From an uncultured Litoreibacter sp. (GTDB lineage Bacteria; Pseudomonadota; Alphaproteobacteria; Rhodobacterales; Rhodobacteraceae): a stretch of 64,000 nucleotides of DNA. Positions 1,437 to 20,027 of the stretch are shown in pieces. Both the position numbers and the translations under genes were made by a program. Numbering within the stretch: position 1 is the first letter of the stretch; each line of letters starts with the position of its first letter. Under the pieces are notes generated by a model. That model had not been told where the DNA came from. It saw only the letters and a program-made list of their open reading frames with translations, and did not search any database. The stretch covers positions 124,001 to 188,000 of the forward strand of contig CANLVO010000001.1 in assembly GCA_947494645.1 (NCBI GenBank), given 5' to 3'.

Positions 1437-3404
1437 ATGCGGTGGATTTTTCGGGCTTTGGGCACGCTGGTTGTGTTGGCCGTGGTGGCTCTGGCGGCGC
1501 TGCTTTTGTTTCCCACGGAACGCATCGCGCGGGTTGCGGAAAGCCAGTTTGAGCAAGCCACCGGGCGGGCGCTCAGCATCAAGGGGGGCGTGTCGCCGAC
1601 GTTGTGGCCCCGGCTGGGCGTGACCCTTGAGGATGTGACGATTTCCAACGCCGATTGGGCGGGCGCGGAGCCGATGGTGGAGGCGGGGCGCTTAGATGTG
1701 GGCGTGGGCGTCTCTGCCCTGATCGGCGGCGATGTGGTGGTCGAGGCCTTTGAGGTGGACGGGCCTGTCATCCGGCTCAGCCGCCGCGCGGACGGGGTGG
1801 CGAACTGGGATTTCCTGACCAATCTGGGCGGCGCAGATGACGGCGGCCCGTCGCGGATCAACTCCGTTTCCTTGCCCAAGGGGACGATCACCGGCGGGCT
1901 GGTCGCGTTCGAGGACGCGGTGGCGGGGGTCTCGCACCGGCTGACCGCGCTTGACGCGACATTGCGGCTGGACGATCTGGCGGGCGCGGCACAGGTGGAC
2001 CTGTCGGCGCTGTTGTCGGATCAGAGCTTCTCCCTCAGCGCGGAGGTGAACGGGTTGCAACCGCTTCTGGATGGCGGCGTGCAGGGGCTGACGGCGACCC
2101 TGGTCGTGGGCGACAATCAGGTCAGCTTTGACGGGGTCGCAGGCATCGAGCCCGCGCAGGCGAAAGGGGGGCTGGAGGCCTCCTTGCGGGACCCGGGCAG
2201 CTTGTTTGCATTGGCGGGATTGAGCGCGCCGCGTATCCCCGAAGGGCTGGGCCAGCGCATTGAAGCAGACGGTAACCTGACGCTGACGCCGGACAGCACG
2301 GTGTTTTTCCGCAACGCGACGCTGGTGCTGGACCAGAACCGGCTGGCGGGCGACGTGGATGTGGATTTGAGCGGCGCGGTGCCTCAGGTAACGGCGCGGC
2401 TGGCGGGCGACGTGCTGGATTTCTCCGCCATGAGCACGGACACCTCAGAAGAGGACGGCGCGGCCAATGTGGACAGCGGCGGCTGGTCGACGGCGCGGCT
2501 GGATGTGAGCGGGCTGTCGGCGGTGAATGGGGAGTTCTCCTTCAAGGCGAATGCGGTGGATTTGGGGTCCCTCCAGCTGGGCCCCACGGATATGGTCGGC
2601 GCATTGGAGCGCTCCCGCATGGTGTTCACCCTGAACCAGGTGACGGCGTTTGACGGCACCGTAACCGGGCAGTTCGTGATCAACAACCGCGGCGGATTGT
2701 CCGTGGGCGGGGATCTGGCGGCGTCGGGCGTGGCGATGCAACAGGTGCTGAACGATTTTGCAGGCTTTGACCGGTTGCGCGGGGACGCGGGCCTGCAGCT
2801 GAAATTTCTGGGCTCAGGCGGCAATATGGACGCGATCATGCGCTCGCTGTCGGGCACGGGCGCCTTGGCGGTGGGCGCGGGGGAGCTGGAGGGGCTCGAC
2901 ATTGCCGGCATGATCCGAAATCTCGACGCGGCCTATGTGGGCGAGGGGTCCAAGACGGTGTTTGACGCGATCACCGCCGGGTTCGAGATCGCGGGCGGCG
3001 TGCTGCGCAACGATGACCTGAACTTTGACGCCAAGCTGGTGACGGCGACCGGGGCCGGGACATTGGATTTGGGACGCCAGGAGGTGGATTACCGGCTGAT
3101 CCCGGTGGCGCTGGCGCGAGAAGACAGTAGCGGGTTTAGCGTGCCGGTGAAGATCACCGGGCCGTGGAGCGACATCCGTTTCCGACCGGACCTGAAATGG
3201 CTGGCCGACCGTGAACTGGCGGAGGAGAAAGAGGCGTTGAAGGCCAAAGCCCGCGCCCGGGAGGACGCGTTGAAAGCCGAGGCCGAGGCCAAGCTGGCGC
3301 GTGAACTGGGGGTTGAGGCGGGCGACGGGCGCTCAGTGGAAGAGGCGGTGAAGGACAAGATCGAGGATCAGGCCAAGAACGCACTGCGCCGGCTGTTTGA
3401 TTGA
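1437..3404 (+). CDS. AsmA family protein
   Basis: A 655-residue protein. The start is placed at the ATG at 1437 because GGAG lies 7 bases upstream and the N-terminus is then a clean signal-anchor helix (WIFRALGTLVVLAVVALAALLLF). Upstream in-frame codons overlap the preceding gene and give a lysine/arginine-rich leader. AsmA-like proteins are inner-membrane-anchored, with a large periplasmic beta-rich body, and belong to the bridge-like lipid transfer superfamily implicated in outer-membrane lipid homeostasis. The C-terminal part (about residues 430-620) has the AsmA_2-like pattern with glycine-rich strands (LSGTGALAVGAGELEG). The last 50 residues are a charged Ala/Glu/Lys helix. Family assignment is by pattern; the exact role is inferred. 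Confidence 0.88.
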   Translation: MRWIFRALGTLVVLAVVALAALLLFPTERIARVAESQFEQATGRALSIKGGVSPTLWPRLGVTLEDVTISNADWAGAEPMVEAGRLDVGVGVSALIGGDVVVEAFEVDGPVIRLSRRADGVANWDFLTNLGGADDGGPSRINSVSLPKGTITGGLVAFEDAVAGVSHRLTALDATLRLDDLAGAAQVDLSALLSDQSFSLSAEVNGLQPLLDGGVQGLTATLVVGDNQVSFDGVAGIEPAQAKGGLEASLRDPGSLFALAGLSAPRIPEGLGQRIEADGNLTLTPDSTVFFRNATLVLDQNRLAGDVDVDLSGAVPQVTARLAGDVLDFSAMSTDTSEEDGAANVDSGGWSTARLDVSGLSAVNGEFSFKANAVDLGSLQLGPTDMVGALERSRMVFTLNQVTAFDGTVTGQFVINNRGGLSVGGDLAASGVAMQQVLNDFAGFDRLRGDAGLQLKFLGSGGNMDAIMRSLSGTGALAVGAGELEGLDIAGMIRNLDAAYVGEGSKTVFDAITAGFEIAGGVLRNDDLNFDAKLVTATGAGTLDLGRQEVDYRLIPVALAREDSSGFSVPVKITGPWSDIRFRPDLKWLADRELAEEKEALKAKARAREDALKAEAEAKLARELGVEAGDGRSVEEAVKDKIEDQAKNALRRLFD

Positions 3405-3441
3405 CCCAAATGTGCTGCGCGCGTGGTCTTATTCTGCTCTT

Positions 3442-3487
3442 GGGGAGCTTTGCTCCCCGCCGCAGGGGCATCCCCTCAGGATATTTC
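3442..3487. repeat. Dispersed double-hairpin intergenic repeat, copy A
   Basis: Two adjacent stems: GGGGAGC and GCTCCCC (3442-3448, 3452-3458) with loop TTT, then GGGG and CCCC around CAT (3465-3475), followed by a GGATATTT-like tail. The same architecture recurs at 50916-50960 (GGGGGC TCT GCCCCC, then GGGCGTCCC, then GGAGGTATTT). It sits between the AsmA-like and gcrA stop codons, where it may also act as a bidirectional terminator. Confidence 0.6.
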
Positions 3488-3526
3488 TAGACATGGGAAG
3501 GGGATGCGGTGACGCGGTGACGCGGT

Positions 3527-4096
3527 TTAGCGGCGGCGGTCGCGACGAGCGGACATAGGCTGGAAGGCCACGCCGACATGGGCCTCGCAATAGGGTTTGC
3601 CCTGTTGTACGGGCAGGCCGCAAAACCAGAAATCTTCGGTGGCGGGATCGCCGACAGGCCATTTGCAGGTCCGCTCTGTCAGCTGCATTACCGTCAGCTT
3701 CTTCGCCTTCTTTTCGATCTCGCGCACGGAGGCGAGCGCCTCTGGGCTAATCTCGTTGGCGGAGGGTTGCGGCGGCAGGGGTTGGCCTGCGGTGACAACA
3801 AGCTTGGGCCGGATCATCGGCTTGTTGGCCGGGGCCGCATTTGCTGCAGGCTTGGTGTCAGGTTCTGCTGCAGGTTTGGCCTTGGCGGCGGGTTTGGCCT
3901 TGGCGGCTGCCTTTTCCTTGGCGGCAGGTTTGGTCGAGGACGCGCCGCCAGAGCGGTTTGACAGCCCCAGACGGTGCACTTTGCCGATCACCGCATTGCG
4001 GGTGACGCCGCCAAGTTCCTTGGCGATCTGGGAGGCGGATTTACCCTCTCCCCACATTTTCTTGAGCACTTCGACGCGGTCATCTGTCCAGGACAT
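3527..4096 (-). CDS. gcrA: GcrA cell cycle regulator
   Basis: A 189-residue protein starting MSWTDDRVEVLKKMW, the typical GcrA N-terminus. An N-terminal helix-turn-helix-like domain (residues 1-48, KSASQIAKELGGVTRNAVIGK) is followed by an Ala/Lys/Pro-rich linker and a C-terminal cysteine/histidine module (CKWP, FCG, YCEAH) that resembles a metal site. In Caulobacter, GcrA binds RNA polymerase holoenzyme and activates promoters carrying CcrM-methylated GANTC. I chose the ATG at 4096 over one 60 bases upstream because homologues begin MSWT. The upstream DNA carries two GANTC sites. The protein is basic, ending RRDRRR. Confidence 0.96.
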   Translation of the reverse strand: MSWTDDRVEVLKKMWGEGKSASQIAKELGGVTRNAVIGKVHRLGLSNRSGGASSTKPAAKEKAAAKAKPAAKAKPAAEPDTKPAANAAPANKPMIRPKLVVTAGQPLPPQPSANEISPEALASVREIEKKAKKLTVMQLTERTCKWPVGDPATEDFWFCGLPVQQGKPYCEAHVGVAFQPMSARRDRRR

Positions 4097-4409
4097 GGCA
4101 CGGCCTTCTATTTGAATCGAGAAGCCGCCCGGCGCGGTATGGCTCAGGGGCGGCATTGGTTGGAGTCAATTTAGAGCCGCGGGGCTGCGGATACAAGGCA
4201 TTAGCGGCCCTCTTGCGTCGGAGCGTGGTTTGCGGCTACACGTCCTCGCATGATCAAAACCGCACATATTACTTTTCTGCGACGCCGACGCTAAGACCGT
4301 CTGCCTTTGATCACGTGTGCACACCGCACCGACCCTCTTTCACAAATTGACACCACCCGCGAATATCCTGACAGTCAGGACTTCGTTTTATGCGTAAAGG
4401 AACACGCTC
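4097..4409. promoter_or_regulatory. Divergent gcrA / argD intergenic region
   Basis: 313 bases without a gene. On the gcrA side there are two GANTC sites, GAATC (4114-4118) and GAGTC (4163-4167), candidate CcrM methylation sites within about 70 bases of the gcrA start. On the argD side are a 10-base palindrome GTGTGCACAC (4315-4324), a TTGACA hexamer (4347-4352) without a good -10 at standard spacing, and an inverted repeat with arms TCCTGAC and GTCAGGA around one base (4366-4380). The argD ribosome site is AAAGGA about 8 bases before the ATG. Promoter positions are inferred. Confidence 0.45.
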
Positions 4410-5612
4410 ATGATCCCGTCCATTATGCCGACCTATGGCCGCGCCAAGATGACTTTTGAAAAAGGCGAAGGCAGCTGGCTGATCGAGCGAGACGGGACGC
4501 GCTACCTTGATTTCGGCGGCGGCATTGCTGTGACGGGATTGGGCCACGCGCATCCTGATTTGGTCAAAGTGGTTCAAGATCAGGCGGCGTTGCTTTGGCA
4601 CACGTCGAACTTGTACAACATCCCTGCCCAACAAGAGCTGGCCGACAAGCTGGTGGCGGAAACCTTTGCCGATACGTGCTTTTTCACCAACTCAGGCGCA
4701 GAAGCCATGGAATGCGCGTTGAAGACGGCGCGGAAATACTGGTCCGCGAAGGGCCAGCCGGAGCGGGTGAATATTATCACCTTTACGGGGTCATTTCACG
4801 GGCGGACGCTGGCCACGATCTCTGCTGCGGCCTCGGACAAGCTGACCGACGGGTTTGGTCCATTATTGCCCGGGATTATCAACCTTGAGACGGGTGATCA
4901 TGACGCTTTGACCGCCGCGATGGACGACACTATTGCCGCTGTCGTTGTGGAGCCGGTACAGGGCGAGGGCGGGATCATTCCGCTGCCCGACGCCTGCCTG
5001 AAGGGCCTGCGCGACCTGTGCGACCAGACCGGTGCGTTGATGATTTGCGATGAAATTCAATGCGGTATGGGGCGGACGGGCAAGCTGTTTGCCCATGAAT
5101 GGGCAGGGGTGACGCCCGACATCATGGCCGTGGCGAAAGGCATCGGGAACGGGTTCCCGCTGGGCGCTTGTCTCGCCACAGAAGACGCCGCGAGCGGCAT
5201 GACGGCCGGCACGCATGGGTCGACCTACGGCGGCAACCCGTTGGCATGCTCCGTCGGATCAGCGGTGATGGACCATATCGCGGATGACGCGTTTCTGGCG
5301 GAGGTGAGCCGCAAGGCCGGTTTGATGCGGCAGAAACTGGAAGGGCTTGTGGCCTCCCACCCCGACATATTTGAGCTTGTGCGTGGGGCCGGGCTGATGA
5401 TCGGCGTGAAATGCAAAGTGCCGAATTTGGACGTGATCGCGGCGGGCTACGCCGAGCATATTCTCGCGATCCCCGGCGGGGATAATGTGATCCGCATTCT
5501 ACCTGCGTTGAACATTGGCGATGACGAGATTGCGGAAGGCGTGGCGCGGCTGGACCGGGCGGCGACGGCGCTGGAACAGCGCGCCTCCGGCGCGACGGAG
5601 GCTGCATCGTGA
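4410..5612 (+). CDS. argD: Acetylornithine aminotransferase (class III PLP)
   Basis: A 400-residue class III aminotransferase, usual full length. It transfers the amino group in the N-acetylornithine step of arginine synthesis, and ArgD enzymes often also serve the N-succinyl-diaminopimelate step of lysine synthesis. Visible marks: [11 protein letters not shown] (phosphate-binding region), SFHGRT, the [11 protein letters not shown] segment with the PLP-contacting Asp214, and the Schiff-base lysine K243 in [11 protein letters not shown]. The stop codon overlaps the GTG start of argF, so the two arginine genes are translationally coupled. The paralogue AstC is possible on sequence alone, but the argF neighbour favours ArgD. 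Confidence 0.95.
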
Positions 5613-7881: not shown

Positions 7882-8391
7882 ATGATGAAAACCTTGATCC
7901 AAGCTGCCGCTGTCGCAGCCCTGACCGCAGGCGCGGCCCAAGCTGCAACCATCGCCGAGATCGCTTCGGGCGACGAGCGCTTCTCGACCCTCGTGGCCGC
8001 CGTCGGCGCTGCCGGTCTTGTCGACACGTTGAACAGCGAAGGTCCGTTTACGGTCTATGCTCCCGTCAATGACGCCTTTGCGGCCCTGCCGGAAGGCACC
8101 GTCGAAACTCTGCTGAAGCCGGAAAACAAAGGCCAGCTGACCGACGTGCTGCTTTACCACGTCGATGACCGCAAGCTGACGGCTGAAGGCATCCCAGCGG
8201 GCTCCAACTACTTCAAGCCAGTGCTGGCGTCCCAGCGTCTGTGCATCACCAAAGACGCCTCTGGCGTGTCGATTGCAGACGGGACAGGCGAAAGCGCAAA
8301 CGTCGTGATTGCCAACATTCAGGCAAGCAACGGCGTGATCCATGTGATCGACAAGGTGCTGCTGCCCGGCACACGCCCTGCCTGCCACTGA
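7882..8391 (+). CDS. Secreted fasciclin-domain protein
   Basis: A 169-residue protein with a Sec signal peptide (MKTLIQAAAVAALTAGAAQA) followed by a single FAS1/fasciclin domain: FSTLVAAVGAAGLVDTLN, GPFTVYAPVNDAFAALP (box H1) and VIHVIDKVLLP (box H2). Such proteins are periplasmic or cell-surface and are linked to adhesion or stress responses in Rhodobacteraceae; a precise role is not known. Two ATGs (7882, 7885) follow GGGAG; either can serve. It is monocistronic by appearance, flanked by repeat-rich upstream DNA and a strong terminator at 8505-8537. Confidence 0.93.
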   Translation: MMKTLIQAAAVAALTAGAAQAATIAEIASGDERFSTLVAAVGAAGLVDTLNSEGPFTVYAPVNDAFAALPEGTVETLLKPENKGQLTDVLLYHVDDRKLTAEGIPAGSNYFKPVLASQRLCITKDASGVSIADGTGESANVVIANIQASNGVIHVIDKVLLPGTRPACH

Positions 8392-10976: not shown

Positions 10977-11065
10977 GGACGGGCACGTATTCTGGGTGGT
11001 CTGACCCGGGCCGCTTTATCCAAATTCCGTATGGACCCGGCTTCTAGGATTGGGTGAAACATCTC

Positions 11066-11102
11066 CGAAACCGATTTCGCTTGCCTTCCGAAATCGGTTT
11101 CG
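11066..11102. promoter_or_regulatory. Two adjacent LacI-type operators
   Basis: CGAAACCGATTTCG (11066-11079) and CGAAATCGGTTTCG (11089-11102) are each 14-bp palindromes with the central CG typical of LacI-family operators; with one flanking base they are exact reverse complements of one another (15 bp). Centres are 23 bp apart, roughly two helical turns. They lie 29 bases before the LacI-type gene, so autoregulation of the whole sugar operon is the natural reading. Confidence 0.82.
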
Positions 11103-11130
11103 GTTAGCGTTTCGGTGGGAGGAAGATTCG

Positions 11131-12207
11131 TTGGGCAACAAGTCAGTCAATCTAAAAGCCTTGGCCGCGCATCTTGGTTTGACCGTCAGTACGGTCAGCC
11201 GTGCCCTCAATGATTATCCCGATATCAGCCTGGCCACGCGCAAGCGGGTGAAGGCCGCGGCGGACCAGTTGGGCTATCGTCCGAACCAGAATGCACGGCG
11301 TCTGTCCATCGGCACGCCTGAGACGGTTTGCTACCTGATGCCCCGCCAGATCGGCCCGAACGCACAGCCATTTGTGGCGCAGCTCTTGGCGGGGCTAGGC
11401 GAGGCGCTGAACGAGCGGAATTGGGACCTTCTGGTCAGCCAAGCGGATGCGTCGGTCGGGGATTTGGCCAGCATTGAGCGGCTGGTGAAGTCCGGACGGA
11501 TTGCCGGGTTGGTGATCTCCCGTCCTCTGAAAAACGACCCGCGGGTCAAGCTAATGCAAAGCCTCGGCTGCCCTTTCGTCGTCCATGGCCGCACTGAGAA
11601 AAGCGACGACTACGCATGGTATGACGTCGACGGCGAGGACGCGTTTGTCACCGCCGTGAACCATCTGGCGCGTCTTGGTCACCGCCGCATCGGGTTTATC
11701 GGCGCGCCGCTGCAATACCAGTTCGCCCAGGAGCGTCTGGACGGCTACGTCCGGGGGCTAAGCCATAACGGCCTGGATCAGGACCCCGCGCTGATCCAGA
11801 TTGCCGAATTTACCGACGAGGGCGGCACCGCCGCGGCGGGGCTGCTGATGGACTTGGATGAGCCGCCCACCGCCATTGTCTGCGTCACCGATATGATGGC
11901 ATTGGGCACGCTGGAGGCGCTGCATTCGCGCCAGATCATGCCGGGGCGGGACGTCTCGGTCATTGGCTATGACGGGCTGCATTTTGGCAAACACGCGCAT
12001 CCGCCTCTGACCACCATGGCCCAGCCGCAGGCGCATGCCGGGCGGCGTCTGGGGGATATTCTGCTGTCGATCATCGACGGGGCGGCGCCTACGAAATTTC
12101 AGGAATTGCAACGTGCCAATCTGGTGCAACGCAGTACGGACGGACCTGTGACCACATCAACATCCACAGGCCAAACACACGTTTCAGAAAGGGAGGAATC
12201 ACGATGA
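11131..12207 (+). CDS. LacI-family transcriptional repressor of the sugar operon
   Basis: A 358-residue regulator. N-terminal LacI helix-turn-helix (NLKALAAHLGLTVSTVSRAL, residues 5-24) and hinge (GYRPNQNARRLS), then a periplasmic-binding-protein-like effector domain (GIAGLVISRP-type strand, HLARLGHRRIGFIG, DVSVIGYDG). The start is set at TTG 11131, which has GGGAGGA 7 bases upstream; an ATG at 11050 would include both operators in the coding region. The gene overlaps the binding-protein start by ATGA. The effector is probably the imported glycoside or its product. Confidence 0.93.
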   Translation: MGNKSVNLKALAAHLGLTVSTVSRALNDYPDISLATRKRVKAAADQLGYRPNQNARRLSIGTPETVCYLMPRQIGPNAQPFVAQLLAGLGEALNERNWDLLVSQADASVGDLASIERLVKSGRIAGLVISRPLKNDPRVKLMQSLGCPFVVHGRTEKSDDYAWYDVDGEDAFVTAVNHLARLGHRRIGFIGAPLQYQFAQERLDGYVRGLSHNGLDQDPALIQIAEFTDEGGTAAAGLLMDLDEPPTAIVCVTDMMALGTLEALHSRQIMPGRDVSVIGYDGLHFGKHAHPPLTTMAQPQAHAGRRLGDILLSIIDGAAPTKFQELQRANLVQRSTDGPVTTSTSTGQTHVSEREESR

Positions 12208-13553
12208 AACGCACGACAACCTTGCTTACAGGGCTTCTGCTCTCCACCGCTTTGGTGGGCTCGGCCGCGGCCGATACCATCCGGGTTTGGACGATGGAAG
12301 TTCAGCCAGAGCGGATGGCCATTCAGGAAGAAATGGCGGCTGCCTTCACCGAGGCCACCGGCCACGAGGTCGAGCTGATCCCCGTCGAGGAATCCGATAT
12401 CCAGACCCGCGCAACAGCCGCCTTTGCGGCGGGCGATCTGCCGGACGTGCTCAACCACACCGTGCAGCACCTGCTGCCTTACGCCGAAGCGGGCCTGCTC
12501 GACACAGCCGCGGCGGATGAGGTGGTCAACGATCTGGGCGTCGACACTTTTGCCGAAGGCCCGATCCGCATGGCCTCCAGCGACGGCGAGATCGTCTCCG
12601 TGCCAACCGATGGCTGGACCCAGATGGTGGTCTACCGCAACGACCTGTTCGAGGCCAACGGCCTGGAAGCACCTACATCCTTTGACGCGATCCGTGCTGG
12701 CCTGAAAGCGCTGCACAACCCGCCAGAGATGTACGGTTTCGTCGCCGCCACCAAGATCGATGAAGGCTACATGATGCAGCTGATCGAGCATCTGTCGCTG
12801 GCCACCGGCTACACGCCGGTCAATGCTGACGGTACGGTGAACGAGGACACTACGAACCTCAAGCAGCTGCTGGAGCTCTATAAAGAGCTGGTCGAAGCCT
12901 CGCCCGAGGGTGATCTGTTCTGGTCGCAGTCGCGCGAGCTGTATCTGGATGGCAAGGCCGCGATGATCATCTGGTCGCCGTCTATTCTGGACGAGCTGGG
13001 CGGGCTGCGCGACAGCGCTCCGGTCACCATCAATGACGACCCAACCACCAAGGAACTGGCGGGCAACACTGGCTTTGCCACCATGGTCTCTGGCCCCGGC
13101 AATGCAGATGGGGCCGCGTGGTCTGATGTGCGCTACATGGGCATCACCGCGGACGCCAACACCGAAGTGGCGCAGGAATTCGTCAAGTTCCTGCTGTCTG
13201 AGGGCTATGGCAGCTGGCTGAGCCAAGCGCCTGAGGGCAAGTTCCCTGTGCGCACCGGGCCGTCCGCTGGGTCCAACGAGTACGAGGCCACTTGGGCCGG
13301 TCTTGATGTGGGCGTTGACCGTAAGGCACCGCTGGCCGACATCTACCCGCAGCAGGTCATCGACGACATCGTTGCAGGTCTGTCCGTGGGCGACCGCTGG
13401 GGCGTAGACTCCGGCCAGCTGGCCAACGCCTCGACCATCATCAACAGCCAGATCATGTCGAAGGTCATCCGCGAAATGACCGATGGCGAGCTGTCCGTTG
13501 ACGAGGCCGCCGACAAGATCGTCGCCGAGCACAAAGCTCTGATGGGCAACTAA
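12204..13553 (+). CDS. ABC sugar transporter, extracellular solute-binding protein
   Basis: A 449-residue family-1 solute-binding protein (MalE/UgpB cluster) with a cleavable signal peptide (MKRTTTLLTGLLLSTALVGSAAA). Mature start DTIRVWTMEVQPE; it carries the usual AAFAAGDLPDVLNH and AAMIIWSPSILDELGG segments. It captures the substrate in the periplasm for the two permeases downstream. It starts inside the lacI stop (ATGA) with GGAGGA upstream. A strong hairpin directly after the stop codon likely stabilises the mRNA for this highly needed component. Confidence 0.95.
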   Translation: MKRTTTLLTGLLLSTALVGSAAADTIRVWTMEVQPERMAIQEEMAAAFTEATGHEVELIPVEESDIQTRATAAFAAGDLPDVLNHTVQHLLPYAEAGLLDTAAADEVVNDLGVDTFAEGPIRMASSDGEIVSVPTDGWTQMVVYRNDLFEANGLEAPTSFDAIRAGLKALHNPPEMYGFVAATKIDEGYMMQLIEHLSLATGYTPVNADGTVNEDTTNLKQLLELYKELVEASPEGDLFWSQSRELYLDGKAAMIIWSPSILDELGGLRDSAPVTINDDPTTKELAGNTGFATMVSGPGNADGAAWSDVRYMGITADANTEVAQEFVKFLLSEGYGSWLSQAPEGKFPVRTGPSAGSNEYEATWAGLDVGVDRKAPLADIYPQQVIDDIVAGLSVGDRWGVDSGQLANASTIINSQIMSKVIREMTDGELSVDEAADKIVAEHKALMGN

Positions 13554-13560
13554 GTCCAAA

Positions 13561-13588
13561 GTCCGGGGCGGCGCTGGCTGCCCCGGAC
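13561..13588 (+). other. Intercistronic hairpin after the binding-protein gene
   Basis: GTCCGGGGCGGC (13561-13572) pairs with GCTGCCCCGGAC (13577-13588) around the loop GCTG, with only a G-T wobble in 12 pairs. There is no T-run, so it is a partial attenuator or 3'-end protector of the binding-protein message, as in malE-malF, not a full terminator. The permease follows 24 bases later. Confidence 0.75.
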
Positions 13589-13611
13589 ATCTTTGACACA
13601 GGTCCTCCGAC

Positions 13612-14910
13612 ATGCCGACTCCAGACACATCAAACCAAGGCCCGCCCAAAGGTCTCGGCCCTCTTGCCAAACGCGAGATGCGGTTCGCTTACCTGTTGCT
13701 GCTGCCGACCTTCCTGATCGTGCTCTCGGTCGTGCTGTTCCCGCTGATTGCCAATGTCTGGATCAGCTTCAAACCGGTAACCTTGGGCGATCTGCGCGCG
13801 CCTGCCATCCTGGTCAACGAGCGCCTGATGGGCGATCTTGAGGCGGTCGGCGACGAGGCCGACATCCGCTACCGCGCCCGCAATTCTTCGCGCAAAAGCG
13901 CGATTGCCGATGTGGTCTTCACCGACACCATCCCCGAAAGCCTGAGCGTCATCTCCGTCGATGACCGCTGCGTTGCTGACGGCCAGACCCTGAGCTGTGA
14001 TCTTGGTGACTACGAGGCCGGACAACGCGAAGATATCATCGTCCGCGTTGCGGCCACGCAGGCCTTTCTCGACGCCCCCGAAAACATCAAGGATACCGAG
14101 CCCGCCTTCACATTCGAGCCTGAGAACATCCTGACCAATGGCGACTTCACGCTCGACAATTTCCGCCGTGTCTTCAACGCCTCCGACTTCTGGACCGTGC
14201 TGTGGGCGTCGATGTATTACACCATCGCAGGCACGGTAGGTGCGCTGGTCATGGGGCTGTTCGCGGCTCAGCTGATGAACATCACCTTCGGTGGCCGGGC
14301 CTTCCTGCGCGGGCTGTTCCTATCGCCTTATGTGGCCCCCGTCATTGCCGTGGCGCTGGCTTGGGTGCTGCTTTTGGACCCCGGTCCCGGCGGCACGCTG
14401 AATGCGTTGCTGATCCAGCTTGGCGTTATTGACGGCCCGATCAGCTTCCTCGGCCAACGCGCGGTTGAGATCAATTTCCTCGGTCTCAGCTTCGACTTCC
14501 CGGTCGCGCTGACGGTGGTCATCATCTTTGAGATCTGGCGCTATTTCCCGCTGGCCATGCTCTTCATTCTGGCGCGGATGCAGTCCGTCTCAACAGACAT
14601 CTACGAGGCCGCAGAGATCGACGGGGCCACGCCCTTGCAGCAATTCCGCTTCATCTCCCTGCCGCAACTGATGGGCATCATGGCGGTGCTGTTCCTGCTG
14701 CGCTTCATCTGGACCTTCAACAAGTTCGACGACATCTTCCTGCTGACAGGCGGGGCGGCTGGTACGCGGACGCTGACAGTCAATGTCTACGAGCAGGCTT
14801 TCGCGGTCTCCAACCTCGGGGCAGGGGCCGCGGTCGCCGTGGTCGTGTTCCTTGTGCTGCTTTGCTTCTCGGTCATCTTCTTCAAATTCTCGCCGGAGGA
14901 TGACGCATGA
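13612..14910 (+). CDS. ABC sugar permease (MalF-type) with inserted periplasmic DUF11-like domain
   Basis: A 432-residue inner-membrane permease. TM1 spans about 27-52 (LLLLPTFLIVLSVVLFPLI). Unlike ordinary 290-residue permeases, about 125 residues separate TM1 from TM2. Residues 83-150 of this loop read as a DUF11/immunoglobulin-like repeat (ADVVFTDTIPESLSVISV, CVADGQTLSCDLG) with two cysteines (C120, C129) that could form a disulfide in the periplasm. The C-terminal part is a normal MetI-type domain with the EAA loop (YEAAEIDGATPLQQFRFISL). The insert may contact the binding protein, as the MalF P2 loop does, but is of another fold. The stop overlaps the next start (ATGA). Confidence 0.93.
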   Translation: MPTPDTSNQGPPKGLGPLAKREMRFAYLLLLPTFLIVLSVVLFPLIANVWISFKPVTLGDLRAPAILVNERLMGDLEAVGDEADIRYRARNSSRKSAIADVVFTDTIPESLSVISVDDRCVADGQTLSCDLGDYEAGQREDIIVRVAATQAFLDAPENIKDTEPAFTFEPENILTNGDFTLDNFRRVFNASDFWTVLWASMYYTIAGTVGALVMGLFAAQLMNITFGGRAFLRGLFLSPYVAPVIAVALAWVLLLDPGPGGTLNALLIQLGVIDGPISFLGQRAVEINFLGLSFDFPVALTVVIIFEIWRYFPLAMLFILARMQSVSTDIYEAAEIDGATPLQQFRFISLPQLMGIMAVLFLLRFIWTFNKFDDIFLLTGGAAGTRTLTVNVYEQAFAVSNLGAGAAVAVVVFLVLLCFSVIFFKFSPEDDA

Positions 14911-16139
14911 GCCGTCTTGGAAACATCTTCTACCTCTCCGTCCTGTTTGGCGCGCTCTGGGGTGCGGTTTGGGTGATCATCATCACGCTGCTGGCGCTGT
15001 TCATCTCAGGCTTGACCTTCCAGCCGCAGGTCACCGCCGGGGCGATTGCAGGTCTTGTCGCGGCGGCGCTACTGGTCTTTCAACCGCCTGCCAAACGCAC
15101 GCTCGCGATGCGGGCGCTGGCCGGATTCGCCTTCCTGCTGGTCCTTATTCTCGCCTCGGGCGCACAACCGATGGGCCTGCCTTTGAGTACCTACACCTCA
15201 GGCCAGTTCATCTTTGTCGTGCTGATGGCCGTCGTCACCGTGCAGTCGATCCACCTGACCTGCACCAATCTCGGGCCGGGTCACGAGAAACGCTACAATG
15301 TAGAAGTCCTCTGCCTCCGTTTCATCAAAGGCTTCGGCCTTGTGGCCTTCACCATTGCCGTGGCGCTGCCGTTCTTCGTCATGGTGATGATGAGCCTGAA
15401 GAACCAGCAGTTGCTCTTGTCCAACCCGCTCGATTTCTCCATCGATTTCGGGCAGGGCTTCGCTTCGCTGTTCCGCAGCTATATCGAGTTGTTCACCCAG
15501 TATCACTTCGGCACTTACCTGATGAACTCCGCGCTGGTCTCGGTGGCCACGGTCGCCATCACGTTGTTCTTCGCGGTGCCGGGGGCCTATGCCGTGGCCC
15601 GGCTGCGCTTCCCGGGCCAGAACTTCCTGTCGCGCTCCATCCTGCTGATCTACATGGTGCCGATGATCGTGCTGGTGATCCCGCTCTATGCGATCTTCAG
15701 CCAGCTCGGCATGCGCAACACGCTGTGGGGGCTGCTCTTTGTCTACCCAGCCACCACCATCCCGGTCGCGCTTTACATGCTCCAAGGCTATTTCCGGGGC
15801 ATCCCGGCAGAGCTGGAAGAAGCTGGCCTGATGGACGGGCTGACGCGGCTCAATGTGATCCGCAAGATCACCCTGCCGCTGGCATTGCCCGCGCTGGCCT
15901 CCGTCGCGCTCTATGTCTTCATGATCGCCTGGAACGAGTTCCTTTTCGCCTTCATGTTCCTCGACAATGTGGACCTTTTCACCCTGTCGCGCGGGATTGC
16001 CGAGCTCAACTCGTCTGAGGTGCCCCGCCAACATCTGATGGCAGGTGCCGTCATCGCGACCGTCCCGGTCCTCGCCCTTTTCCTTTGGTTCGAACGCTTC
16101 CTTGTGGCCGGTCTGACCGCAGGCAGTGTGAAAGGTTAA
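14907..16139 (+). CDS. ABC sugar permease (MalG-type) with extra N-terminal membrane helices
   Basis: A 410-residue inner-membrane permease. The last about 260 residues form a normal MalG-type unit: FGTYLMNSALVSVATVAIT, PGAYAVARLRF and the EAA loop (ELEEAGLMDGLTRLNVIRKI). The first 150 residues add about four hydrophobic helices (LSVLFGALWGAVWVIIITLL, AIAGLVAAALLVF, AGFAFLLVLILASG, FIFVVLMAVVTVQ) not present in typical MalG-like proteins of about 280 residues. The partner permease is also enlarged, so the transporter as a whole is non-standard. It is translationally coupled to the upstream permease. Confidence 0.93.
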   Translation: MSRLGNIFYLSVLFGALWGAVWVIIITLLALFISGLTFQPQVTAGAIAGLVAAALLVFQPPAKRTLAMRALAGFAFLLVLILASGAQPMGLPLSTYTSGQFIFVVLMAVVTVQSIHLTCTNLGPGHEKRYNVEVLCLRFIKGFGLVAFTIAVALPFFVMVMMSLKNQQLLLSNPLDFSIDFGQGFASLFRSYIELFTQYHFGTYLMNSALVSVATVAITLFFAVPGAYAVARLRFPGQNFLSRSILLIYMVPMIVLVIPLYAIFSQLGMRNTLWGLLFVYPATTIPVALYMLQGYFRGIPAELEEAGLMDGLTRLNVIRKITLPLALPALASVALYVFMIAWNEFLFAFMFLDNVDLFTLSRGIAELNSSEVPRQHLMAGAVIATVPVLALFLWFERFLVAGLTAGSVKG

Positions 16140-16142
16140 CGC

Positions 16143-17420
16143 ATGTCTCTCACCCAAACCGCCATCGACATTCTCGCCCGCAATGACCGCGGCGGGTTCA
16201 CGATCCCCACGGCGGGGCTTTACCCTTATCAATGGAACTGGGACAGCGCATTCGTGGCGCTGGGCATCGCGACCTATGACATGGACCGCGCCTGGGGAGA
16301 GATCACGTCGCTGATCGAAGGCCAATGGCCCGACGGCATGATCCCGTCGATCATCTTCCGCAGCGATGACCCGGACTATTTCCCCGGCCCGTCGCGCTGG
16401 GGCAAGACGCCCGGGCCGATCCCATCAACGGGCATCTCGCAGCCGCCCGTGCTGGCCACCATCGTGCGCAAGCTGACCCAGACTGGCACCGGGCTGGACC
16501 ACAACCGCCGCGCACAGGTGTTTGACGCTATGTTCAAATGGCACAAATGGTGGCACGAGGCCCGCACCGTGGACGGCATCGTCGCGACTGTGCATCCATG
16601 GGAGACCGGGCGCGACAATTGCCCCGAATGGAATATCGGGCTGGAGGCCATGCAAAGCGCCTCCGATCTGGCGCCCTACACGCGCATGGACAACAAACAT
16701 GTCGACCCGAGCTTCCGGCCCAGTCAGGAGCAATATGACAAATACCTCACCATCGTGCAGTTCGGCGACAGCGTCGGCTGGGACCAGCGCCGCCTGACCG
16801 ATGAAGGCCCGTTCCTGATGGCCGATCCCAACCTCCATTTCGTGCTTTTGCGTGCTGACAAGGACCTGCGTGCCATCGCTGTGTCGCTTGGCAAGCCGCA
16901 GGCGGTGTTGGAGCAGATCGACAGCTGGATCGCCAAGGCCGACACGGCAACAGACACCCTCTGGAACCCTGATCTCGGCGCGTTCACCGCCCGCGACATG
17001 CGCACCGGCACCTTTTCCAAAGGTTTCAGCAATTGCAGCGCTTTGTGCTTCTACGCTGACAGCGGCACGCCGCAGCAACGGGCCAAAACGCTGGAGCACA
17101 TGACGCGCATTGCCGCCAAGGTCGGCTACATGCTGCCCAGCTGGGACCCGGAGGCCCCTGATTTCGAGGCGCAGCGCTATTGGTGTGGGCCGCTCTGGCC
17201 GCAGATGAACTACATGACCGCGCTCGGCCTGTCAGAACAGGGCGAAGCCGAGATGGCAGGCCGGGTGCAAACCGATCTGTGCCGCGCGATTGAGAAAAGC
17301 GGCTTTTGGGAATGTTTCAACCCGCTGACCGGTGACGGTTGCGTGGGCAGTAACTTCTCCTGGACCGCCGCCGTCTGGCTGTCCTGGCAGCACGAAAACA
17401 AACTGAAAGGCGCGGCGTAA
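16143..17420 (+). CDS. GH63-type glycoside hydrolase (mannosylglycerate/glucosylglycerate hydrolase-like)
   Basis: A 425-residue cytosolic (no signal peptide) alpha/alpha6-barrel hydrolase. LYPYQWNWDSAFVALGIA, PSIIF and HPWETGRDNCPEWN (151-164, putative acid Asp158) match the GH63/MGH1 group that hydrolyses mannosylglycerate or glucosylglycerate. WECFNPLTGDG near the C-terminus holds Glu390 at the position of the catalytic base. The intracellular site means the intact glycoside is imported by the adjacent ABC system. The adjacent mannose/lyxose isomerase favours a mannoside. It starts three bases after the permease stop. Exact substrate is inferred. Confidence 0.87.
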   Translation: MSLTQTAIDILARNDRGGFTIPTAGLYPYQWNWDSAFVALGIATYDMDRAWGEITSLIEGQWPDGMIPSIIFRSDDPDYFPGPSRWGKTPGPIPSTGISQPPVLATIVRKLTQTGTGLDHNRRAQVFDAMFKWHKWWHEARTVDGIVATVHPWETGRDNCPEWNIGLEAMQSASDLAPYTRMDNKHVDPSFRPSQEQYDKYLTIVQFGDSVGWDQRRLTDEGPFLMADPNLHFVLLRADKDLRAIAVSLGKPQAVLEQIDSWIAKADTATDTLWNPDLGAFTARDMRTGTFSKGFSNCSALCFYADSGTPQQRAKTLEHMTRIAAKVGYMLPSWDPEAPDFEAQRYWCGPLWPQMNYMTALGLSEQGEAEMAGRVQTDLCRAIEKSGFWECFNPLTGDGCVGSNFSWTAAVWLSWQHENKLKGAA

Positions 17421-17444
17421 CGCCGCCCGAGGTAAGGAAAGAAC

Positions 17445-18497
17445 ATGGGGTCTATCAGCCTTCAATCGGTCGAAAAGTGGTTTGGCGAGGTTCAGGTCAT
17501 CAAGGGTGTCGATCTGGATATTCTGGACGGCGAGCTGATCATCTTCGTCGGCCCCTCGGGCTGCGGCAAATCCACGCTCCTACGCATGATCGCGGGGCTG
17601 GAGGAAACCAGCCGCGGCCAAATCTTGCTCGACGGTGAAGACGTCACCCACAAGGTCCCGTCAGAGCGGGAGCTGTCGATGGTGTTCCAGTCCTACGCGC
17701 TCTACCCCCACCTCTCGGTCGAGGAAAACATGGGCTTTGCGCTGATGACCGCCGGGGCCTCAAAGGCCGAGATCAGCGAAAAGGTGAACCACGCCGCCGA
17801 AACCCTGAAGCTGACAGATTACCTCGACCGCCGCCCGAAGGACTTGTCAGGCGGGCAGCGTCAGCGCGTGGCGATTGGCCGGGCGATCGTGCGCAAGCCC
17901 AAGGGCTTCCTGTTTGACGAGCCGCTCTCTAATCTCGACGCCTCTCTGCGTGTCGACATGCGGTTCGAGATCGCCCGGCTCCACAAGACGCTGGCCAGCA
18001 CGATGGTCTACGTGACCCACGATCAGGTAGAGGCGATGACGCTGGCCGACCGCATCGTGGTCCTCAAGGACGGGCAGATCATGCAGGTCGGCACTCCGCG
18101 CGAGCTCTATGAAAATCCCCAAAACGTCTTCGTGGCGCAATTCATCGGCAGCCCGAAAATGAACCTGATGCCCTGCGGCACAAGTGGCGACCAGTTCACC
18201 CTTGCAGGCGGCGGCACCGGCCCGTTGCAAGATGCGGGCCAAACGGGCGCAGTCCAGCTGGGCGCGCGCCCTGAACATATCGATGTGGTTGCCCCCGGCG
18301 CGGGGCAATGTGATGGTACGGTGCAGGTCAGCGAATATCTTGGCGCGGACTACTTCCACTACGTCGATTGCGGCCCGCTGGGTCTGATGACGGTGCGCAC
18401 CGCAGGGTCTGCCGAGGATCTGGAAGGCCAGACTGTGGGGTTGAAATTCGACATCAGCCGCCTGCATTTCTTCGGCGCGGACGACCAAAGAGTTTAG
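17445..18497 (+). CDS. ABC sugar transporter ATP-binding protein (MalK/UgpC type)
   Basis: A 350-residue ATPase with a nucleotide-binding domain (residues 1-235) followed by a MalK-like TOBE/OB regulatory domain. Walker [11 protein letters not shown]-loop [11 protein letters not shown], signature [14 protein letters not shown], Walker [12 protein letters not shown] and switch His in VTHDQVEAM are all intact. It forms the cytosolic motor dimer for the two permeases. SD-like AGGTAAGGAAAG precedes the ATG. It is in the operon between the hydrolase and the isomerase. Confidence 0.95.
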
Positions 18498-18506
18498 GGC
18501 AGACCC

Positions 18507-19199
18507 ATGAAGCGATCACTGATCAACGACATTCTGGCCGAGGCCGACGAGATGATGCGCCGCTTCGGCTTTGCGCTGCCGCCCTTTGCCTATTGGACGC
18601 CTGAGGAATTCAAGGCCAAGGCCCCCTCCGCCCGTCACGTCATCGACGCGCGCTGCGGCTGGGACATCACCGACTATGGCGCAGGCGATTTCGACAAAAT
18701 GGGCCTGTTCCTGTTCACCCTGCGCAACGGGCTCTTGTCCGACCTGCAAGGCGGCGGCGGCATGTGCTACGCCGAAAAGCTGCTGATCTCGCGCCGCGAC
18801 CAGCTGTCGCCAATGCACACCCATGTCATCAAGGCCGAGGATATCATCAACCGGGGCGGCGCTGATCTGGTGATCGAGCTGTTCGGCTCAGATGACAAAG
18901 GCAATTTTGCCGAAGATCGCGGCGGGCAGGTGATGTGCGACGGCATCCTGCGCGACTATGCGCCCGGCGAGAAGCTGGTGTTCAAACCCGGCGAAAGCGT
19001 CACCCTGCGCCCCGGCGACTGGCATGCGTTCTGGGGGGAGGGCGGCGACGTGCTTATTGGCGAGGTGTCCACCGTAAATGATGACGAGACCGACAACATC
19101 TTCCGCGAACCCATTGGCCGCTTTGCCACCATCGAGGAAGACGTGGCTCCGACCCATCTGCTGGTCAGCGACTATGCCGAATGGCTGGACAACGCGTAA
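18507..19199 (+). CDS. D-lyxose/D-mannose ketol-isomerase family protein
   Basis: A 230-residue cupin-fold sugar isomerase. It shows the family start (INDILAEADEMMRRFGFALPPFAYW), GMCYAEKLLISR and metal ligands in SPMHTHVIKAEDI plus GDWHAFW. Characterised members interconvert D-lyxose/D-xylulose and D-mannose/D-fructose with a divalent metal in the cytosol. As the last gene of the operon it would turn mannose released by the GH63 enzyme into fructose for central metabolism. It ends nine bases before the convergent sulfotransferase stop. Confidence 0.92.
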   Translation: MKRSLINDILAEADEMMRRFGFALPPFAYWTPEEFKAKAPSARHVIDARCGWDITDYGAGDFDKMGLFLFTLRNGLLSDLQGGGGMCYAEKLLISRRDQLSPMHTHVIKAEDIINRGGADLVIELFGSDDKGNFAEDRGGQVMCDGILRDYAPGEKLVFKPGESVTLRPGDWHAFWGEGGDVLIGEVSTVNDDETDNIFREPIGRFATIEEDVAPTHLLVSDYAEWLDNA

Positions 19200-19208
19200 A
19201 GCGCAGGC

Positions 19209-20027
19209 CTAATCGCCCAGCTTGGCATGGACCTCATCAAGGTCGATCTCCCCGATGGGCATCTTGTTGCCGGGGTCCTGCGCGTCATATTTGAACAGCT
19301 GAAAGTCGCGCTTGTAGATCTCGTAGACCAGATGCATCGACAGGTCGTCGAAATAATCCTCAATCGGATGCGCGCGTTTCGGGCCGTGGCCTTCGCTTTC
19401 GTTGAACCGCGGCACCGCTTCGATATCGACCTTCACAGGCGTCTCCACCGCGTCGAGCACGGATTTCATGCCGTCATTGAACGTCTCGGTGAAGAAGATG
19501 TTGTCGTAGCGCCCGCCATTCACGATGAAGGTGGAGATATGGCCCGACATGGCCGACCAATGGATATCGGGGTCCATCGGACGCCGCCAGCGGATGGTGT
19601 CGCGGGCAAACAGCAGGAAGCGGCGGAAGCTTTTGATCTGGTCGAACTCGAAGCCGCTGTCCGGATCACCCACCTCGATCCCGTATTTCTGCACCAACAG
19701 CGGCACCAGATTGCCCCGGTAGCGCTTGCCGTTGCGCTGGATGCCGCAGATCTTGTCAAAGAAGGAGGACAGGATGCGCCCATACGGGTTGCGCACGCAG
19801 GTAAAGGCGTAGCTTTCATGGCCCTTCACGTTGCGCTCGATCTTGGGCTGGCTGTCTTCCAGCGCCCATTTGTGCAGCTTGTCCTTGGCGTCGTGAATGT
19901 CGCCGTCAAAATAGCTGCCATGGTCCGAGTAATACATGATCTGGCCGATCGACGAGCAGGCGCATTTCGGCACCACGCGGTACACCATGCTTTCGCTTTC
20001 CGTCATCCAGGTGCCTGGAAATCCCAT
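19209..20027 (-). CDS. Sulfotransferase family protein (Sulfotransfer_2-like)
   Basis: A 272-residue protein with the two PAPS-binding signatures: VPKCACSSIGQIM (5'-phosphosulfate loop, with Lys) and CVRNPYGRILSSFFDK (3'-phosphate loop with Arg/Ser). The pattern fits the carbohydrate sulfotransferase family that moves sulfate from PAPS to sugars. There is no signal peptide or membrane helix. It is divergent from a GT14-type glycosyltransferase, so both may build a sulfated surface glycan. A later ATG (MVYRVV) is an alternative start and would leave the first loop nearer the N-terminus. Confidence 0.85.
   Translation of the reverse strand: MGFPGTWMTESESMVYRVVPKCACSSIGQIMYYSDHGSYFDGDIHDAKDKLHKWALEDSQPKIERNVKGHESYAFTCVRNPYGRILSSFFDKICGIQRNGKRYRGNLVPLLVQKYGIEVGDPDSGFEFDQIKSFRRFLLFARDTIRWRRPMDPDIHWSAMSGHISTFIVNGGRYDNIFFTETFNDGMKSVLDAVETPVKVDIEAVPRFNESEGHGPKRAHPIEDYFDDLSMHLVYEIYKRDFQLFKYDAQDPGNKMPIGEIDLDEVHAKLGD

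Follow-up and report, generated by a model that had tools for sequence, protein, structure and literature searches.

What is the substrate of an operon in which a GH63 glycoside hydrolase gene stands among the genes of a sugar importer and a D-lyxose/D-mannose isomerase gene closes the row? The question is raised by a 64,000-nucleotide stretch, hereafter the window, from an uncultured Litoreibacter sp. (GCA_947494645.1; positions 124001–188000 of contig 1, CANLVO010000001.1; genome of 3.44 Mb in 8 contigs). Seven complete, co-directional open reading frames (ORFs) encoding a LacI-family repressor, a binding protein, two permeases, the hydrolase, an ATPase and the isomerase nearly abut here, overlapping by 4 bp twice and otherwise separated by 58, 3, 24 and 9 bp. 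This order, claimed by the original prediction, was borne out, each ORF lying where it had been placed and Pfam matches confirming the families (Table 1). We consider it probable that the genes form a substrate-inducible operon for scavenging exogenous 2-O-alpha-glycosyl-glycerate, most likely mannosylglycerate, with glucosylglycerate perhaps also a substrate.

In the proposed route, the binding protein and an ATP-binding cassette (ABC) importer would bring the intact anion into the cell, where the cytosolic GH63 enzyme, an inverting hydrolase with an Asp/Glu pair, would release glycerate and mannose (or glucose). The isomerase would convert the mannose to fructose, two kinases encoded elsewhere (a fructokinase and a glycerate 2-kinase) would feed glycolysis, and the LacI protein would repress its own operon via two tandem operators until relieved by substrate or product. 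The reading is based on gene content, residue conservation, co-occurrence, slot replacement and operator conservation, from which we infer substrate, inducer, transport, activity and phosphorylation.

The window hydrolase, the only GH63 of its family in the genome, is predicted with good support to hydrolyse a glycosylglycerate. It matches PF22422 over the full length of the family model (positions 1–356 of 356) with 384 bits, where the cut-off is 27, and its best solved relative is the mannosylglycerate hydrolase (MgH) of Thermus thermophilus (2z07, 4wva-c; E 1.7e-98, 42% identity), followed by the glucosylglycerate hydrolase (GgH) of Mycolicibacterium hassiacum (5ohc and others; E about 1e-52, 31% identity). 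When the 18 solute-contacting or cleaving residues of GgH (taken from PMC6608630) were mapped onto the window protein, 17 were found to be identical, including the catalytic acid D158 and base E390, the direct glycerate contacts Y27, W31, Y79, R192 and Y346, and the water-mediated contact Y198. The 18th, Q434 in M. hassiacum, is F405 in the window protein, as in the Thermus enzyme (F408), which shares the same catalytic and ligand residues. All 18 window positions are invariant across 28 aligned hydrolase relatives, and the GH63 at L002, the nearest named hit and from an uncultured Litoreibacter isolate, is 93% identical. Since GgH is reported to cleave neither glucosylglycerol nor glucosylglycolate (PMC6608630), the glycerate part of the substrate is well predicted.

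The pointers to mannose come from the isomerase. The window protein matches PF07385 over its full length (positions 1–222 of 222, 334 bits) and is the only such match in the genome, in which a family search found no AGE-family gene. Its only solved relative found by sequence is the D-lyxose isomerase of E. coli O157:H7 (3kmh, 3mpb; E 5e-52), for which a mannose/lyxose kcat/Km ratio of 0.75 is reported (PMC6746899). Residues H104, H106, E111 and H173 are invariant in 11 isomerase sequences and present in the E. coli enzyme; their putative metal role was set by analogy with H75, H77, E88 and H143 of Thermofilum (PMC8378251), not by superposition. In a survey of 292 genomes of the order (Rhodobacterales), the hydrolase family was matched in 108, full-length (332 bits or more) in 93, and PF07385 in 163; both genes were present in 79 genomes, GH63 alone in 14, the isomerase alone in 84 and neither in 115. 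PF07385 thus occurs in 79 of the 93 hydrolase genomes versus 84 of the 199 others (odds ratio 7.7), and the Fisher p of 1.3e-12, uncorrected for kinship, is too small because the genomes are related. One of the 79 (G246) matches the isomerase weakly. The two genes are at most 10 kb apart in at least 16 of the 79, the window genome included; one of these 16 (G096) has a stop inside the isomerase frame.

A second isomerase family appears in the same positions. All 14 GH63 genomes lacking PF07385 contain an AGE-family gene, versus 10 of 16 genomes with neither gene (p 0.013; the 16 were the first listed, not a random draw). The AGE gene adjoins the same operon in 3 of the 14, being divergent from LacI with an operator between them in L151 and following the ATPase gene in L152 and L153, and it also follows the ATPase gene in L051 (SAR116) and L054, two of the 80 named loci that had been fetched by their hydrolase. 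Of these 80, 22 carry PF07385: 8 have it after the ATPase gene, 13 have it divergent from LacI, and 1 has it upstream on the same strand. Its position differs between lineages. D-mannose isomerase is the best NCBIfam match of all five operon AGE proteins, and the nearest solved structures of the L051 protein are 5x32 and 3gt5. We regard the two unrelated predicted isomerases in the same operon slots as the strongest evidence for mannose as a product.

The operon is real, conserved and common in the order. The succession LacI, binding protein, two permeases, GH63 and ATPase was found in 58 of the 80 named loci, which excludes chance; contig ends truncate several of the remaining 22, and L043, L065, L074 and L077 have the hydrolase without the transporter. 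Among the 29 best-scoring loci fetched from the order (the window's own excluded), the hydrolase lies beside a permease or ATPase gene of the operon in all except L091. A quick hydrolase tree, with two reference rows on long branches, included 75 of the 80 named loci, L009, L018, L046, L060 and L071 having been dropped for want of a usable hydrolase from ORF picking. To these were added five rows (L130, L131 and L136–L138) picked for a nearby isomerase, L017/L136 and L014/L138 being identical. The 75 named loci divide into 20 with an isomerase, 35 with none in view and 20 that allowed no judgement; a short contig was accepted where an isomerase was present, but absence was scored only if both flanks were long enough. 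The tree minimum of 10 changes is only indicative given the tree sampling and this counting.

Other arrangements of the same parts were also found. Within the same family, L130 and L131 hold a second LacI/ABC/GH63/isomerase operon with a non-orthologous transporter (28–43% identity where matched), in which a distant GH63 gene (37–38%) is directly followed by the isomerase gene (78–82%); 10 of the 16 linked genomes show spacing of this type, L130 and L131 having been read among them. In L034 and L050 the GH63 proteins are 58% and 49% identical to that of the window, whereas the transporter parts are only 26–42% identical, and therefore the hydrolase has met other transporters too. In the same-genus genome at L137 the operon has no LacI gene in view, and a 655-amino-acid ORF (3245–5209 of that locus) without a Pfam match at 0.001 lies upstream of the isomerase gene. 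A 609–639-amino-acid protein is encoded divergently from LacI in five loci (cluster c7: L058, L062, L067, L075 and L081); the L062 copy, the one scanned, had no Pfam or NCBIfam match at 0.001.

Upstream of the window LacI gene are two operators, 23 bp apart from start to start, which end 50 and 27 bp before the TTG at 11131: an imperfect one with a single mismatch, CCGAAACCGATTTCGC, and a perfect core, CCGAAATCGGTTTCGG, the sole perfect match in the genome. A second TTG at 11050 also opens the LacI frame and would overrun both. Of 84 sequences submitted to motif fitting, 60 included a reachable LacI start (two pairs were duplicates), and in 59 of these the palindromic consensus TCCGAAACCGGTTTCGGA was recovered ahead of LacI; the miss is L006 (Jannaschia marina, with its isomerase gene after the ATPase gene). 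In all 13 divergent loci the operator lies between the isomerase and LacI genes, with two copies in several. We considered whether distant isomerases might belong to the same LacI regulon. Of 63 genomes with an unlinked isomerase, 30 were searched and 25 have one perfect operator each, in 24 cases within 6.5 kb of the GH63 gene (that of G198 lies elsewhere). None of the 25 lies within 3 kb of the isomerase gene; the possibility was not borne out, and the regulon looks local. Scans for sigma-70 promoters (1 versus a mean of 1.9) and terminators (8 versus 6.4) did not rise above shuffled sequences.

Table 1. Operon genes and operators in the window (positions count from the first nucleotide of the window)
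Feature	Coordinates	Strand	Evidence and remarks
Imperfect LacI-type operator	11065..11080	+	One mismatch; tandem with next
Perfect LacI-type operator core	11088..11103	+	Sole perfect match in 3.44-Mb genome
LacI-family repressor	11131..12207	+	TTG start; Peripla_BP_3 (PF13377) 2e-28, LacI HTH (PF00356) 1e-11
Family-1 periplasmic sugar-binding protein	12204..13553	+	SBP_bac_1 4e-24
ABC permease A	13612..14910	+	BPD_transp_1 5e-13; DUF11-like insert
ABC permease B, MalG-like	14907..16139	+	BPD_transp_1 1e-19; N-terminal extension of ~140 residues
GH63 hydrolase, mannosylglycerate/glucosylglycerate type (predicted)	16143..17420	+	MGH1-like_GH (PF22422) 9e-115
MalK/UgpC-type ATPase	17445..18497	+	ABC_tran 3e-35 plus TOBE_2
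D-lyxose/D-mannose isomerase (predicted)	18507..19199	+	Lyx_isomer (PF07385) 4e-100

Several observations weigh against mannosylglycerate, or against the assignments from which it is read. The GH63 protein is not filed under the NCBIfam GluglyHdase equivalog because it scores 297 bits against a cut-off of 550, and the window isomerase (231 bits against 350 for LyManIsomGneg) and the five operon AGE proteins (196–351 against 600 for D-mannose isomerase) fall below their cut-offs as well. Some PF07385-type isomerases are reported to use mannose barely (PMC8378251), and the AGE protein of L152 is nearest to 2afa and the YihS/sulfoquinovose isomerases and only then to 5x32. The frequency of AGE genes in genomes with neither the hydrolase nor PF07385 makes AGE alone a weak marker. 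PF07385 is out of view in 35 of the 55 judgeable named loci, and none of the 25 perfect operators in the 30 genomes searched lies at the unlinked isomerase. In a rival reading, the main physiological substrate would be glucosylglycerate, a marine cyanobacterial osmolyte and a major solute of Prochlorococcus NATL2A (PMC11631117), and the isomerase, often absent from the operon, would serve another sugar or be a chance pick-up. Characterised members of the MgH/GgH family act on both solutes, GgH of M. hassiacum with an about tenfold preference for glucosylglycerate (PMC6608630); since the family takes both, the hydrolase alone cannot settle the sugar as mannose. In L056 and L081, a GpgS-like gene and a phosphatase gene adjoin the operon (GpgS was scanned in L056 only, L081 being assigned by neighbour cluster), pointing to glucosylglycerate there. 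In L065 and L077 (Puniceicoccaceae/Opitutaceae), on the other hand, a related GH63 gene without the ABC operon lies beside genes for mannosyl-3-phosphoglycerate (MPG) synthase and phosphatase (neighbour families were scanned directly in L065, and L077 was assigned by neighbour cluster). The enzyme family is therefore tied to both solutes in different lineages; from these synthase genes, other bacteria may make mannosylglycerate, L065 and L077 representing possible marine producers. Red algae, named by the original prediction for their solute digeneaside, would be one possible source. Glucose needs no such isomerase, and the use of the same slots by two unrelated isomerases and the co-occurrence of hydrolase and isomerase across genomes speak against glucosylglycerate as the main substrate, which we consider unlikely.

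A generalist importer and hydrolase, for which mannosylglycerate is one of two equal substrates, would fit the Thermus enzyme, which has the same phenylalanine at the Q434 position and is reported to handle both with similar efficiency (PMC6608630). Nothing decisive stands against this, the isomerase link saying only that mannose is one product, and we rate it as distinctly unlikely. The case for a different alpha-mannoside or alpha-glucoside (glucosylglycerol, kojibiose or mannosylglucosylglycerate, for example) comes from the binding protein, whose nearest solved relative by sequence is YcjN of E. coli (E 1e-21), a protein described as having no known ligand and encoded in a cluster with kojibiose and glucosylglycerate phosphorylases (PMC11543891). 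The invariance of the glycerate-gripping residues across the 28 aligned hydrolases, and the rejection of glucosylglycerol and glucosylglycolate by the M. hassiacum enzyme, in which these residues are the same, make such a substrate very improbable. Scavenging of a glycosylglycerate, most likely mannosylglycerate, remains our preferred reading: the predicted chain from import through hydrolysis to conversion of mannose to fructose is well supported by residues, co-occurrence and slot replacement, while the choice between mannosyl- and glucosylglycerate, which the original prediction had made in favour of the former, is not settled by them.

All parts of a carbohydrate ABC importer of the MalK type are present (SBP_bac_1, two BPD_transp_1 domains and an ATPase with TOBE), and the ATPase scores 447 bits against the UgpC subfamily, above the cut-off of 432. 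In permease A, a DUF11-like insert below the Pfam cut-off (13843–14061, residues ~78–150) precedes the transport domain; among relatives, at E up to 1, DUF11 and DUF7933 are each matched by 14 of 23. The insert recalls the P2 domain of MalF.

Known systems differ from the operon in import, enzymes or both. E. coli uses exogenous mannosylglycerate through mngRAB, in which import by a phosphotransferase system (PTS) phosphorylates the solute and a GH38 mannosidase acts on it; the window operon would instead combine ABC import of the intact solute with a GH63 hydrolase and a mannose isomerase, and a Pfam scan of the operon genes, not extended genome-wide, found neither a PTS permease nor a GH38 mannosidase. 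LacI-type regulation is also found in the E. coli ycj cluster. That cluster, with the glucosylglycerate phosphorylase YcjM (PMC11543891), resembles the window operon in its related binding protein and in glycosylglycerate chemistry, but the window operon has different enzymes and no phosphorylase. A role in mobilising an internal store has been proposed for the M. hassiacum enzyme (PMC6608630), whereas the window enzyme probably acts on an imported solute; what sets it apart from Thermus MgH is its place among genes for an ABC importer and a predicted mannose isomerase, in a genome without a match to MPG synthase (PF09488) or GpgS_Meth, other synthase families not having been searched. With no match to these two families, import of the substrate is more likely than its synthesis. 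A list of LacI regulators in PMC4052901 includes those for mannose and mannosides; neither 'glucosylglycer-' nor 'mannosylglycer-' occurs in the main text of that paper. Glucosylglycerate has been considered a likely osmolyte in a mat community, with no route reconstructed in the available part of that report (PMC5507952).

As for the kinases expected elsewhere in the genome, candidates are present, although they do not reach the NCBIfam cut-offs: one MOFRL glycerate 2-kinase candidate (210 bits against 670) and, among eight PfkB kinases of which four were scanned, one (L124) with fructokinase as its best match (147 bits against 450). Two ROK proteins were also found. Downstream of the operon, the next gene (19209–20027), on the opposite strand, encodes a sulfotransferase, and positions 7882–8391 encode a small protein that has a fasciclin domain (PF02469) and a signal-like start. 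In L132 and L133, which have no GH63, the PF07385 isomerase gene has a Peptidase_C26-like neighbour (PF07722, from a scan of L132) and no evident sugar operon around it; a long neighbouring gene presumably encodes malate synthase.

No published description of the operon was found, by title or abstract, in the openly licensed literature. To call it a new catabolic system, as had been done, is nevertheless too strong: the make-up is new, but the kind of osmolyte catabolism is known, and the operon is common in the order. On balance, we are inclined to see in it a marine pathway, widespread and so far undescribed, that would import mannosylglycerate of algal or bacterial origin intact through an ABC transporter and degrade it without phosphorylated glycoside intermediates. 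The pathway would have been assembled more than once, since two unrelated putative mannose isomerases and two non-orthologous transporters have joined the same hydrolase family. Marine glycosylglycerate fluxes are hard to follow because the consumer genes are not named; plasmid-borne homologues of the hydrolase, with identities of at most 46%, mostly carry the labels hypothetical protein, trehalase family glycosidase or neutral trehalase in the 20 records listed out of 170. With a marker operon of this kind, use of the substrate could be followed in meta-omic data, and the operon offers a directly testable ABC-type alternative to the PTS route of E. coli. If the reading is true, mannosylglycerate would be a common exchange currency, passing from marine producers to alphaproteobacterial consumers.

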